This document shows positions 18,875-53,577 of a DNA stretch of 64,000 bases, piece after piece; position 1 is the first letter of the stretch, and each line of letters begins with the position of its first letter. Made by a program: the position numbers and the translations under genes. Source of the DNA: Elusimicrobiota bacterium (GTDB lineage Bacteria > Elusimicrobiota > Elusimicrobia > Elusimicrobiales > UBA9959); the NCBI GenBank assembly GCA_026388155.1, contig JAPLKI010000016.1:124001-188000 (forward strand), read 5' to 3'. The notes under the pieces were generated by a model. It was not told the origin of the DNA and did no database searches. It was given only the letters and a program-made list of their open reading frames with translations.

Positions 18875-21850
18875 ATGAATTCAATAGAAAACGGTAATTT
18901 GCGGATTTCCCGAAAAATCAGGCGCAGTGTCGGTTCTTTTCTCTTCCTGTTGCCCGTTACCGGCTGCCTGTTGCCTTCCTATGCCGCCATCACGCCGACC
19001 CTGAGTTATCAGGGCTTTCTGCTGAACAAGGTGACTAATTTGGCCGTTGATACGCCGCAGGACATGAAATTTATTTTTTATGACGCGCCTCAGTCCGGAA
19101 ACGCGCTTTTCACCGAGAGCCGCTCTAATGTCCCGGTTCTGAAAGGACGCTATGATGTGGAGATAGGTTCGGTAACCGGCGGCATACCGTTTTCCGTGTT
19201 CCGGGGAGATACGGAGATTTGGCTTGAAATACAGGTTAAGAACCAAAGCAGCAATTACGAGGCAATGTTGCCGAGGATAAAAATGCAGGCTTCTCCTTAC
19301 TCCTTCAACTCCCTCTACGCTTCCACAGCTTCCGCCGCCACTCAAAATTTCTCGGCCGATACCATAAATGCTTTGCCGCAAACCCAAAACGGCGCCATAA
19401 CAGTTTCCACAAATATCGTTGTGCAGGGCGGACTTTCCGTGACCGGCATTGTGGAAAGCAAAGTCGGCGGTTTTATGTTTCCCGACGGCCATACGCAGAC
19501 GGAGGCCGCCGCCCAAAATATGTGGAAGCTGAGCGGCACCGGCAACGACCTTTACAGCGTAAACACGGGCAATGTGGGTATCGCCAACGACACGCCGCAG
19601 GCCCGGCTTGATGTTCTTTCTGCCGGCTCCGCGCAGACCGACATGGCGCAGATATGGCGTGATTCCGGCGGCGTGATAAAGGCCTCCATGTCCGCCACCG
19701 GCGTAATGACGGCGGCAAAGTTCGTTGGCGACGGCACGGGACTTTCAGGCCTGGTCTTAAAGGCCGGCGATTCCATGACAGGCCCGCTGACGGTGACTTC
19801 TCCGCTCGGATTGTCCGCTCCCAAAATAAAGCTTGCCGACAATGTAGAGCTTTCTTCAGCTACGACGGCTTTCCAGGGCGGCGTCTATATTTCAACCAAT
19901 GTGTATCTGCCTGCGGGGGCGAAATACTATGGCGACGGTTCCCAGCTTCAAGGCGTGCCGGTGGTCGACCCGACGAAAGTGGCCAAGAACGGCGACACAA
20001 TGACCGGACAGCTGACCCTGGGTAATAACTCCACGATGACCGTAACCGGCAATGCTTTCTCCGTGGGAGGAAGCACTTTCTCCATTTCCGGGGGTAATAC
20101 CGCCGTGGGCAGTTCTTCCTACCTGGCGCGGCTTACCGTGGGTGGAGGAATTATCGCCACTTCAAGTATAACAACACAGGCAGGGCTTTATGCGGATGCA
20201 ATAACAATAGGAGGAATGCTGCCTGGTTACACCTCCAGGGCCATCTTCAGCAATTTCGACACCTATAGTATAGAAACCGCTTCCAGCGTAATGGTTCACA
20301 CGGGCATAGTGACGGCTCCTGATTTTGTGGCTACAACCGGGCGATTTACAGGGCGATTTACAGGTGACGGTTCAGGGCTGACAAATATTAACGGGACCGA
20401 CACCAATAAAGTTTCAAAGGCAGGCGACATCATGACCGGGAGTTTGCTGATAACAGGCTCAAACCTGCAAACCTACTCATTTACGGTTTCAAGCCCCTCC
20501 AGTGTGAACGCGTACAGCCTGGCTGTAACCACCGATGGATATGTGGGTGTGCAGGTTTCAGCCCCCACCGCTCCGCTTGAGGTTAATCAGCAGATAAAAA
20601 TTTCAAACTCCGCCAAGAACGGTTTCATAAGCTGGGCCTCACTGGGCGGCGGCGTCAGCCAGGGCGCTTTGGGTTTTCCGGCCGGCACAAGGGACCTGGT
20701 CTACCGGGCGGCCGGTTCGGACCCGGTCACCGGCGGCCAGGAAGCGTTCAGAATAAGATCCGACCAATCCGGAAACTGGAGCGCGGGCATCGGAACCGCT
20801 GCTCCGCAAGCGGGATTGCATATAAACGCAAATACACTTTTCGGGGCTGACCTGAATTCGCCTATAATGTATGTGAGCACAAATTCTTCCGGCGTGGGTA
20901 TTTCAACTACCTCAATTACCAGCAAACTGACGGTCGATGGCGGCATTCTTGCCACTTCTTCAATTACCGCGCGCGGCGGCTATTATGGAAACCAGAGCGG
21001 TATTACCCTTAACGGCAATACCGGCATTGGAAGCAGTCCGTCGCCGGATGCGGGTCTATATGTGGCGAAGGCCGGCGCTGCGTATACCCTGGCCGTAGGC
21101 ATGCATGGTACACCTGATGAGTACACCAAGTATTATGATTTTGCCGTCACTGCAGGAGGCCGTGTAGGCATTGGTTTGGATTTTAATACAACCGAGCCGA
21201 CTAATAATTTGCAGGTCGTTAACTCAATAAGGATAGGCGCCGAGGACGGCGGGGATTCCATAGCTTCTCTTATTTTGCGCCCGGTTGGCGGCCCCACCTA
21301 TATAAGCTGGAGCGAAAACCAATCCGGCTACCGGAACAAAGGTGTTTTGGGCTTCGCGCTCAATTCCAATGATCTGGTTTACAAAGCCGGCGCAAGCGAT
21401 CTCAGCAATGGCGTTGAGGTTTTCAGGATCGCCGCCAATTCCTCCGGCGGCTCATGGAAATTCGGTATAGGGACTAACAACCCGACGGAAAGGTTCCATG
21501 TGGCAACCAACGTGCTTATAAGCACGGCCGCTACTTCTCCTATACTTTTTGTAAGCACGGCCAGCGGCAATGTGGGGATAGGCACCAGTTCCCCCGCTAC
21601 GCCGCTGGATGTGCGGGGCACGGCAAGTTTTGGAAGCGCGGCTACCCGCTCCACTATTACAGCCGAGGGTTTTTGGCAGCCGCGTTGGCTCACCTCAGCC
21701 GAAATACAGACGCTTCCTGCAACCGCGGTCGGCCAGGTTATTGGCAGTTCGACCTTACAAGACCTTTGTGTCTCCACCGGTGTAGTGGCCGGCTCATGGG
21801 TGCGGGTTGGTTTCGGGACCCCATCAGGGAATAATAATGCGTGTTGGTAA
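18875..21850 (+). CDS. large secreted tail-fibre-like repeat protein
   Basis: A 991-residue protein with an N-terminal signal region (SVGSFLFLLPVTGCLLPSYA), a beta domain opening TPTLSYQGFLLNK, then a long repetitive body. It contains three GDxMTGxL units (KAGDSMTGPL, KNGDTMTGQL, KAGDIMTGSL), several FVGDGTGLSGL/FTGDGSGLTNI units and recurrent GNVGIGTSSPATPLDV-like units, all words typical of phage tail fibres and bacterial trimeric surface fibres. The C-terminus ends GTPSGNNNACW after an AEIQTLPATAVGQ segment. GGAGG precedes ATG. Likely a surface-exposed fibre or adhesin. It lies downstream of the sorting-domain proteins but lacks their C-terminal domain. No phage structural neighbours exist, so a prophage origin is not supported. 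Confidence 0.75.
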   Translation: MNSIENGNLRISRKIRRSVGSFLFLLPVTGCLLPSYAAITPTLSYQGFLLNKVTNLAVDTPQDMKFIFYDAPQSGNALFTESRSNVPVLKGRYDVEIGSVTGGIPFSVFRGDTEIWLEIQVKNQSSNYEAMLPRIKMQASPYSFNSLYASTASAATQNFSADTINALPQTQNGAITVSTNIVVQGGLSVTGIVESKVGGFMFPDGHTQTEAAAQNMWKLSGTGNDLYSVNTGNVGIANDTPQARLDVLSAGSAQTDMAQIWRDSGGVIKASMSATGVMTAAKFVGDGTGLSGLVLKAGDSMTGPLTVTSPLGLSAPKIKLADNVELSSATTAFQGGVYISTNVYLPAGAKYYGDGSQLQGVPVVDPTKVAKNGDTMTGQLTLGNNSTMTVTGNAFSVGGSTFSISGGNTAVGSSSYLARLTVGGGIIATSSITTQAGLYADAITIGGMLPGYTSRAIFSNFDTYSIETASSVMVHTGIVTAPDFVATTGRFTGRFTGDGSGLTNINGTDTNKVSKAGDIMTGSLLITGSNLQTYSFTVSSPSSVNAYSLAVTTDGYVGVQVSAPTAPLEVNQQIKISNSAKNGFISWASLGGGVSQGALGFPAGTRDLVYRAAGSDPVTGGQEAFRIRSDQSGNWSAGIGTAAPQAGLHINANTLFGADLNSPIMYVSTNSSGVGISTTSITSKLTVDGGILATSSITARGGYYGNQSGITLNGNTGIGSSPSPDAGLYVAKAGAAYTLAVGMHGTPDEYTKYYDFAVTAGGRVGIGLDFNTTEPTNNLQVVNSIRIGAEDGGDSIASLILRPVGGPTYISWSENQSGYRNKGVLGFALNSNDLVYKAGASDLSNGVEVFRIAANSSGGSWKFGIGTNNPTERFHVATNVLISTAATSPILFVSTASGNVGIGTSSPATPLDVRGTASFGSAATRSTITAEGFWQPRWLTSAEIQTLPATAVGQVIGSSTLQDLCVSTGVVAGSWVRVGFGTPSGNNNACW

Positions 21851-21873
21851 ATTCTGTTTCTCCTCTTATTTGC

Positions 21874-21879
21874 TATAAT
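21874..21879 (+). promoter_or_regulatory. -10 box of the riboflavin operon promoter
   Basis: TGCTATAATT contains TATAAT, with a weak -35 (TTCTGT) 16 bases upstream. A start near 21886 would place transcription exactly at the first base of the FMN aptamer's closing helix, which supports the assignment. Confidence 0.6.
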
Positions 21880-21886
21880 TATTTTA

Positions 21887-22007
21887 GTTCTTCAGGGCGG
21901 GGTGTAATTCCCCACCGGCGGTAACCTCCTAAGGAAGCCCGCAAGCCCGCGAGGGCAGACCCGGTTAAACTCCGGGGCCGACGGTACAGTCCGGATGAAA
22001 GAAGAAC
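21887..22007 (+). promoter_or_regulatory. FMN riboswitch (RFN element)
   Basis: The closing helix P1 is perfect: GTTCTTC (21887-21893) pairs with GAAGAAC (22001-22007). Conserved blocks are present in order: AGGGCGGGGTG, CCCCACCGGCGGTAA, AGCCCGCAAGCCC, GCAGACCCGGTTAAACTCCGG, GCCGACGGTACAGTCCGGATG. It binds FMN and is expected to cause premature termination upstream of ribBA. CTTCAGGGC at 21890-21898 is the exact complement of GCCCTGAAG at 22121-22129, the left arm of the downstream terminator, so an antiterminator pairing is available when FMN is absent. Confidence 0.95.
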
Positions 22008-22010
22008 GAT

Positions 22011-22112
22011 AACAGCAGCGAACAGCAAATAGCGAATAGAGAATAGCGAACAATTTCCTTTTCTCTGAATGCCTCCACCCCTAATCGCTAATAGCTATTC
22101 GCAATTCGCTGT
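22011..22112. repeat. intergenic hairpin E7 (TAGCGAA type) inside the riboswitch leader
   Basis: The left arm repeats AGCGAACAGCAAATAGCGAATAG. The right arm CGCTAATAGCTATTCGCAATTCGCTG is complementary. The centre, AACAATTTCCTTTTCT, is a decayed core. It sits between the FMN aptamer and its terminator, adding about 100 bases to the expression platform. Confidence 0.75.
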
Positions 22113-22120
22113 AGTTGGAC

Positions 22121-22151
22121 GCCCTGAAGAAAAAGCTTCGGGGCTTTTTTT
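22121..22151 (+). terminator. FMN-controlled transcription terminator
   Basis: GCCCTGAAG (22121-22129) pairs with CTTCGGGGC (22136-22144) around an AAAAAG loop, followed by seven T. The left arm is complementary to the 5' side of the FMN aptamer, the usual arrangement of a riboswitch expression platform. Confidence 0.9.
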
Positions 22152-22162
22152 ATGGACAAAAT

Positions 22163-23356
22163 ATGAGCAAATCTTTTTCCCCTATTGAGGAAATAGTTAA
22201 AGACCTGCGCCGGGGCCGCATGGCGATAATTACCGACGACGAAAACCGCGAGAATGAGGGAGACCTTGTGCTGGCGGCCCAGTTCGCGGACGAGAAAAAA
22301 ATAAACTTCATAGCCAGACACGCCCGCGGGCTGATCTGCGCCCCCTTAAGCCCGGAACGCGCGCTTCGCCTTGAGCTTGGCCCCATGCAGCGGGAAAACA
22401 GCGACCCTTTTAAAACCAGCTGGCTTATTTCAGCGGACGCTAAAAAAGGCGTTACCACGGGTATTTCAGCCGCTGACCGCGCCAAAACGCTGCGTGTGCT
22501 GGCGGGGCGCCGTTACTCAGGCGGGGATCTCACGCGGCCGGGCCATGTTTTTCCCCTGCGGGCCAGGGAGGGCGGGGTTCTGGTGCGCTGCGGCCATACC
22601 GAGGCCTGTGTGGACCTTTTAAAACTTGCGGGGCTTGAGCCGGCCGGCGTTATCTGCGAAATAATGAATCGCGACGGCACCATGGCAAGGCTTGCCGACC
22701 TTAAAAAATTCGCCCTGCGCCATCGTCTTAAAATGGCTACAATAGCCGGTCTTATCGCCTATCGCCGGGCCCGCGAATCGTTGATCGAGCAATCCGCGTC
22801 TTCCATTTTGCCCACTGAATACGGCCTGTTTAAAATAAGCGTTTATAAAGACACTCTTACCGGGCTTGAGCACACGGCGCTGGTGATGGGCGAAATAGAA
22901 AATCCGGTGCTGGTGCGAGTCCATTCGGAATGCCTGACGGGCGATGTGTTCGGTTCAAAACGCTGTGATTGCGGGCAGCAGTTGAGGGCGGCCATGTGCG
23001 CCGTGGCCGCCGAAGGTTCCGGAGTTATACTCTATATGCGCCAGGAAGGCCGCGGCATCGGGCTTTTGAACAAAATAAAGGCCTACGGCCTGCAGGACAA
23101 GGGTTATGACACTGTTACCGCGAACACGGCCCTGGGCTTTAAGGCCGATCTGCGTGATTACGGCATAGGGGCGCAAATACTGTGCGACCTGGGGGTCAGG
23201 AAAATGCGACTGCTCACCAATAATCCCAAAAAAATAATAGGGCTTGAGGGATACGGGCTTGAAATAACCCGAAGAGTGCCTATAGTCATACAGCCGAATG
23301 TCCATAATTTAAAATACCTTAAAACTAAACAAAAAAAGTTGGGACACTTGTTTTAA
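22163..23356 (+). CDS. ribBA: bifunctional 3,4-dihydroxy-2-butanone-4-phosphate synthase / GTP cyclohydrolase II
   Basis: Two steps of riboflavin synthesis in one chain of 397 residues. The RibB half (about 5-205) has [21 protein letters not shown] and GHTEACVDL. The RibA half (about 210-395) has [20 protein letters not shown], giving the zinc cysteines, and [18 protein letters not shown]. Start ATG at 22163 lies 11 bases after the terminator T-run; the reading frame upstream runs through the terminator and is not used. No strong Shine-Dalgarno, only GGAC. First gene of the riboflavin set, under the FMN riboswitch. Confidence 0.95.
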
Positions 23357-25823: not shown

Positions 25824-25979
25824 GGTCCAGCGGTTCAACGGTTGGAAAAACATGCTGTAGGTTCACGGTTCAGCGGTTCAAGGTTCAACGGTTAGAAACT
25901 CGGGATACAAGAGATTATGGAAAAAATAACCTCGAACCGTGAATTGTGAACCTCTAAACCCGGAACCGTGAACCTGTTA
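25824..25979. repeat. long intergenic hairpin E10 (GGTTCACGG type)
   Basis: Repeated GGTTCACGGTTCAGCGG words on the left pair with AACCTCGAACCGTGAATTGTG and GGAACCGTGAACC on the right. At ~155 bp it is one of the largest elements. It lies between convergent ribE (+) and radC (-), whose stop codons flank it. Confidence 0.75.
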
Positions 25980-25981
25980 AC

Positions 25982-33335: not shown

Positions 33336-33421
33336 AGAACTTGGAATTTAGAGCTTAGAACTTAGAGTTTAGGATTTAGAATTATGACTTCGGATTCCTA
33401 CTTTCTAAGTTCTAAGTTCTT
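33336..33421. repeat. intergenic hairpin E14 (GAACTTAG type)
   Basis: GAACTTGGAATTTAGAGCTTAG on the left pairs with CTTTCTAAGTTCTAAGTTC on the right. The right arm is also the last codons of the neighbouring glycosyltransferase (NLELRK), so the element has become coding. Confidence 0.72.
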
Positions 33422-53425: not shown

Positions 53426-53448
53426 TCATAGCGCAAAGCGCTATGATC
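53424..53448. repeat. perfect 11-bp hairpin at the stop of the binding-protein gene
   Basis: GATCATAGCGC, AAA, GCGCTATGATC. It overlaps the TGA stop. A 9-bp relative (GGATAGCGC GAA GCGCTATCC, 55771-55791) overlaps the stop of the MalG-like gene, and a remnant TAGCGCGAAGG follows the MalF-like gene. Confidence 0.75.
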
Positions 53449-53577
53449 GCCATAAGCTTTAAGCCATAGGCCATAGGCAGAAAGATTGCCATAAGCTTTA
53501 AGCCGTAAGCTAGAGGCGATTTTAGGAACTCTTTAAAAGCATATGGCCTAAAGCATACGGCTTATGGCAGTGATGGT
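53449..53577. repeat. intergenic hairpin E24 (GCCATAA type)
   Basis: GCCATAAGCTTTAAGCCATAGGCC and CCATAAGCTTTAAGCCGTAAGC pair with ATGGCCTAAAGCATACGGCTTATGGC. The core is TTTTAGGAACTCTTTAAAAGC. Confidence 0.72.

Follow-up and report, generated by a model that had tools for sequence, protein, structure and literature searches.

The hairpin E7, which separates the FMN aptamer from the terminator in the ribBA leader of the Elusimicrobiota genome studied here (G000), is likely a tolerated and self-contained insert, an old copy of a dispersed repeat sitting within an FMN OFF attenuator and probably delaying its terminator. The leader is part of a window of 64,000 nt, the term used below for the whole stretch of DNA that was analyzed.

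Layout of the ribBA leader

The elements of the leader, with their positions in the window, are the following:

21871–21879, forward strand: TGCTATAAT, an extended −10-like promoter element directly 5′ of the aptamer, recognized by eye
21884–22010, forward strand: FMN riboswitch aptamer (RFN element), RF00050, 118.8 bits over the full model (1–138)
21890–21898, forward strand: CTTCAGGGC, putative 5′ strand of the antiterminator, made of a part of P1 and of the aptamer core; exact complement of 22121–22129, covarying across leaders
22008–22120 (113 nt), forward strand: spacer with hairpin E7, an interspersed repeat with AATAGCG heptad arms (5′ arm at about 22011–22055, 3′ arm at about 22085–22117)
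22121–22151, forward strand: predicted intrinsic terminator, a GCCCTGAAG/CTTCGGGGC stem-loop (22121–22144) followed by T7 (22145–22151)
22163–23356, forward strand: ribBA (DHBP synthase/GTP cyclohydrolase II; PF00926, PF00925), the putatively regulated gene

The covariance-model score of the aptamer compares with a gathering score of 66.2 bits, and its P1 is formed by GTTCTTC (21887–21893) and GAAGAAC (22001–22007). The terminator, the sole terminator-like site in a scan of 21700–22400, lies between the aptamer and ribBA, as in an OFF attenuator, and the antiterminator would likewise use P1 bases and exclude the terminator. Downstream of ribBA follow ribH, ribD and ribE (PF00885, PF01872 and PF00677), so that the genes behind the aptamer are riboflavin genes, as expected for an FMN riboswitch. 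An earlier note on this DNA, made from the letters alone, had the aptamer ending at 22007, the terminator starting at 22121 and a hairpin filling the gap; the coordinates were correct (RF00050; fold z −3.7), and the exact match it had seen between an aptamer and a terminator strand corresponds to the 9 nt over which CTTCAGGGC and GCCCTGAAG (22121–22129) are complementary. Judged from these sequence features, the leader appears to be an ordinary FMN OFF switch and not a new switch type. It shares with the ribD RFN attenuator of Bacillus subtilis the aptamer, the predicted P1 switching, the antiterminator composed of the 5′ aptamer strand and the 5′ arm of the terminator, and the riboflavin genes downstream, but differs in its spacer, 113 nt occupied by the hairpin of a dispersed repeat, and in a T-run that ends 11 nt 5′ of the ribBA ATG.

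The promoter-like TGCTATAAT is absent from the consensus-scan list, having no fitting −35 box; TATAAT-like boxes stand 5′ of the aptamer in many relatives, with a spacing about as in the window. Directly after the terminator T-run there is a four-codon ORF, ATGGACAAAATATGA (22152–22166), the stop of which overlaps the ribBA ATG at 22163, and in many relatives ribBA starts at the first ATG, the counterpart of the ATG of this ORF.

Antiterminators and spacers in relatives

The FMN aptamer was searched for in G000 and 60 relatives, where it was present in 21 of 61 genomes, and in 80 named ribBA loci, 24 of which had it. When the best complement of the aptamer 5′ end in the next 330 nt was compared with 60 shuffles, 17 of the 21 family leaders and half of the named ones (12/24) showed an antiterminator complement at p ≤ 0.05. 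The family leaders failing the test were L009, L014, L017 and L021, the terminator of the last being outside the 330-nt stretch. At the fifth pair of the antiterminator, 20 distinct strand pairs comprised A-T (9), G-C (10) and G-T (1), so that this pair changes on both strands. Recurring in relatives and covarying across phyla, the match of CTTCAGGGC and GCCCTGAAG therefore looks like the usual FMN antiterminator and not like a relic which survived an insert; such terminator/antiterminator logic is described for OFF riboswitches by Barrick and Breaker (PMC2258182).

Two genomes with ribBA but no FMN match (loci L102 and L103) gave no aptamer at E ≤ 0.1. Of 14 family genomes lacking an FMN match, 12 also gave no RibBA match at E ≤ 0.001, among them G001 and G002 of the same genus and also G003, and riboflavin synthesis may therefore be patchy in the family. 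Searches for other riboswitches in five genomes resulted in one TPP, three cobalamin and no glycine matches.

Since the automatic terminator finder misplaced or missed some terminators (for example in L010, L018, L089, L021 and the Spirochaetia leaders), the gap lengths were drawn from other measurements. From P1 to the terminator, the spacers of the 21 family leaders measure 22–291 nt, with the aptamer and the terminator kept; when measured between the end of the Rfam model and the complementary strand, 20 of them have a gap of 18–142 nt, and the remaining one has 291 nt counted from P1. The 110 nt of the window is the fourth longest of the 21. The statement of the earlier note that FMN riboswitches place their terminator within tens of bases thus describes a tendency well enough but fails as a rule, with gaps reaching 142 and 291 nt. 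The comparison with relatives which it had called for showed spacers usually filled with a hairpin and freely variable in length.

The family spacers are mostly unrelated in sequence, yet 13 of the 21 had a predicted fold outranking 90% of equally long local windows, and 18 fell into the better half, with a mean shift of −1.9 sd; the background windows were mostly coding, which makes the size of this effect uncertain. Among the spacers of up to 51 nt, 5 of 11 belonged to the lowest-energy 10%, and those of L008, L014 and L015 had no fold signal against same-length local windows. The 291-nt spacer of G006 holds a different heptad hairpin, and the Omnitrophota leader L027 has a TAAGAGT-like heptad run in its spacer. 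In six named Spirochaetia leaders, the complement comes just ~8–12 nt past the aptamer, so a spacer hairpin is not required in general. From the numbers of well-folding spacers, a folded spacer appears to be usual in the family, with E7 as a long example: the hairpin is common and its length is free.

A stronger reading of the same data is that a spacer hairpin of any sequence is a selected timing or pausing part across the family, a role into which E7 was recruited. The fold ranks just given speak for it, as do the retention of the E7 element in two genera, the occupation of the same slot in G006 by other heptad hairpins over 291 nt, and the effects of NusA and NusG on FMN response and termination (PMC12288461). 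It is weakened by the three spacers without a fold signal, by the 6 of 11 short spacers outside the lowest 10%, by the mostly coding background, by the Spirochaetia leaders, according to which this switch has no need of a spacer hairpin, and by the fact that neither sequence nor register is conserved among the spacers. A selected timing function for E7 is possible, but this reading as a whole is unlikely. A little more doubtful still is its widest version, in which the FMN switch of the family needs an any-sequence spacer hairpin to define how long FMN has to bind, dispersed heptad hairpins were enlisted for it repeatedly (AATAGCG in G000 and G015, GTTACTGG in G006, the heptad run in one Omnitrophota leader), and repeat expansion tunes the sensitivity.

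Several leaders showed further peculiarities. Six FMN leaders of Trichococcus (L099, L101, L096, L086, L089 and L087) apparently have two serial terminators, at ~+75–81 and ~+140–147, the second carrying the aptamer-complementary CCCTGAAG. The spacer of L003 (G034) contains TTAGTTCTTC, which is complementary to the whole of GAAGAACTAA in the region of the P1 3′ strand, so that alternative partners are possible for both P1 strands in this leader. The aptamer of G006 (L021, 1437–1665, minus strand) has a palindromic insert of ~70–80 nt in the P6 loop and scored 89.3 bits when taken whole.

Hairpin E7, its repeat family and the age of the insertion

The 113-nt spacer from P1 to the terminator folds at −30.0 kcal/mol (z −3.7, 300 shuffles; z −3.05 with 200 shuffles for 22008–22122), and in the surrounding 3-kb locus not one of 40 windows of this length reaches as good a fold. 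The arms of E7 are built from consecutive 7-nt units akin to AATAGCG. With the pattern AATAGCGAATAGCG at up to 2 mismatches, and the reversed pattern as control, arm matches numbered 450 against 82 in the own genome. Both same-genus genomes likewise had an excess of the pattern (126 against 30 and 174 against 60), as did G015 (89 against 40) and G006 (47 against 19), and it was at or near the control in the other 33 of 36 genomes of the survey that holds the same-genus genomes and G006. A DNA search with E7 in its own genome returned 52 matches at E ≤ 1, itself included, which shows the dispersed copies expected of an interspersed repeat with heptad arms. Within the window, E7 belongs to the repeat family D1, and periodic segments were concentrated at 7 nt (14 segments) and 14 nt (8) at a threshold of 0.60, with 0–3 at the other periods from 4 to 15; at a threshold of 0.69, there were 3 and 5 segments, respectively. 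Given the excess of arm matches and this periodicity, E7 is, as far as sequence can tell, one member of a dispersed family of hairpin repeats, and the membership in a repeat family implied by the name which the earlier note gave it was thereby confirmed in both the window and the genome.

REP/REPIN and MITE repeats are, like the E7 family, short, interspersed, palindromic and non-coding; the arms of the E7 family differ in being heptad-periodic, and a MITE is marked by terminal inverted repeats, a duplicated target site and a matching transposase. The heptamer repeats (TAACTGA) known from between the genes of Beggiatoaceae and cyanobacteria (PMC4679880) resemble the E7 family in their 7-nt units, intergenic position and high number per genome. 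As described there, they are direct, with one inverted case, stand mostly just 5′ of start codons and do not have a hairpin form, in contrast to the inverted, degenerate arms by which the E7 family forms hairpins.

Other hairpins and repeats with different 7-nt units (TTAGAAC, GCCATAA, AGGCTGA and AACCGTG types) occur in the window at 33350–33420, 53445–53517, 733–801 and 25935–25981. Heptads of the CTATTCG type encode the hydrophobic stretch (LFAIRYSLF..., ahead of a Cys) of lipoprotein-like signal peptides at these loci:

L109, from 1440 on (G000): CTATTCG-heptad signal peptide
L148, from 1467 on (G015): CTATTCG-heptad signal peptide
L135, from 1488 on (G015): CTATTCG-heptad signal peptide

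L109 and L148 apparently represent one protein in two genera, and dispersed repeats may have been turned into signal peptides.

The ribBA leader of G015, a member of a different genus, has an E7-like element at the same place, 73% identical. In a search of six genomes with E7, this element was the sole non-self match spanning most of the query (5–104 of 116), each of the remaining matches spanning one arm, and the alignment takes in part of the loop. Its score against E7 was 51.5 over 105 nt, as compared with 18.5 reached by 500 shuffles, with at most 38.5 for 15 other G015 copies and with at most 35.5 for 18 copies of G000; among 270 other G000 × G015 copy pairs, which were longer segments, the maximum was 59.5 (one pair) and the 99th percentile 45.3. 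As the similar element stands at the same place, the insertion of E7 is probably old and would predate the split of G000 and G015. In the RibBA tree, the two genomes are successive branches, and a clade grouping them was not rejected (p-AU 0.221).

Alternatively, related repeats might have reached the same place in G000 and G015 independently, in which case the insertion would not be old. The repeat is indeed present in both genomes (450 against 82 and 89 against 40 in the control), the order of the tree does not group them, and at a RibBA identity of 73% neutral DNA is expected to be hard to align. The restriction of the matches elsewhere in the six genomes to one arm, as opposed to most of E7 in the G015 leader, and the alignable loop sequence argue the other way. 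We consider independent arrival rather unlikely, and think that a single old insertion is distinctly more probable than two separate ones. As neither G001 nor G002 has a ribBA match, the same genus offers no close empty site for E7. G004, which has the genus label of G015 and a different spacer, was considered as an empty site and rejected, its RibBA nesting among g4 proteins.

Energetics and the proposed mechanism

The fold model used here has no FMN, kinetics or multiloop length term. Within it, energies of −97.1 and −96.5 kcal/mol were obtained for the state with P1, E7 and the terminator and for the antiterminator state, respectively; with the insert deleted, these became −67.1 and −63.9. 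The insert thus brings its own 30 kcal/mol to the terminator state and ~2.6 more to the antiterminator state. In growing transcripts at equilibrium, P1 stays at 0.97–1.00 from 22015 to 22123, with no more than 0.2 expected pairs between aptamer and spacer before GCCCTGAAG is complete; once it is transcribed, the antiterminator is at 1.00, and at full length the terminator prevails (0.68). Without the insert, the modeled terminator fraction is 0.99, and because the insert moves the balance toward the antiterminator, E7 may not be neutral. In 20 leaders, the free minimum was 0 to 14.3 kcal/mol more stable than the antiterminator state, with the window among the smallest (0.6) and G015 at 8.8, a spread which means that equilibrium energies alone fail to describe the family.

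According to the model, the insert is self-folding, disturbs neither the aptamer nor the antiterminator/terminator strands and can coexist with either state, in line with the tolerance supposed in the earlier note. Its further suggestion, that the fold keeps these segments close in space, is plausible with a small gain of about 1 kcal/mol: a polymer-loop estimate that assumes a loop of 60 units gives a cost of 1.1 kcal/mol for the unfolded and 0.2 for the folded insert, so folding would be useful but not vital. Closeness in timing, which had also been proposed, does not hold, since RNA polymerase must copy all 113 nt whether folded or unfolded; the terminator comes later, and a change in sensitivity is to be expected.

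The shift of the model balance toward antitermination and a gap that is the fourth longest of 21 could also mean that the insert damaged the switch, leaving ribBA constitutive or constitutively terminated. With the aptamer, the 9-nt antiterminator match and the terminator all intact, and a similar insert persisting in G015, this is extremely improbable. The periodicity of its arms allows E7 several pairing registers spaced by 7 nt, which brings in another possibility, namely that E7 slides: the switch would use one register, which takes up the linker, for antitermination and different ones for termination. In the model, the registers 352, 359 and 366 share the spacer in the state with P1 and the terminator, and 352/356 dominate in the antiterminator state. 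These energy differences fall within the model error, and the G015 element has the same dominant registers in both states, so the register coupling is not conserved and the reading was downgraded to very unlikely.

The likely account remains that of a tolerated insert. Without FMN, CTTCAGGGC of the aptamer would pair with GCCCTGAAG and block the terminator, while with FMN bound P1 would be held, GCCCTGAAG would be free and the terminator would form just 5′ of the ribBA start. Attenuation of transcription would in this way control ribBA-ribH-ribD-ribE. A copy of the genome-wide hairpin repeat would have landed in the spacer, probably before G000 and G015 parted. It would have been tolerated on account of its self-contained fold, which stays unpaired with the aptamer and suits either state of the switch. 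Relative to the shorter spacers of relatives, it would delay the terminator by ~70 nt of extra transcription, and this should prolong the period in which FMN can bind and make it effective at a lower concentration. Kinetic control of FMN switches is described in PMC7573352 and PMC12288461. In the latter, ribD has a lower FMN half-effect concentration with NusA, a factor that slows transcription, and pausing due to NusG increases termination; on these grounds, a longer spacer is expected to give a more sensitive switch.

Folded repeats in riboswitch leaders and heptamer repeats are both known already. In the pneumococcal trp leader, a folded BOX repeat is situated between two T boxes and repression is still seen (PMC3049150). 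Like E7, it is an interspersed folded repeat in a riboswitch-controlled leader with regulation apparently kept, but BOX separates two complete riboswitches, whereas E7 separates the aptamer of one switch from its terminator. Searches of open-licence PMC papers yielded no description of an interspersed repeat that separates an FMN aptamer from its terminator.

The E7 leader shows how a riboswitch can accommodate a long insert. In a kinetically controlled riboswitch, the distance between sensor and terminator can rise from ~20 to nearly 300 nt with the switching strands intact, and dispersed repeats are able to occupy this distance. Should the FMN threshold be set by the length of the spacer, the family would represent a natural test series.
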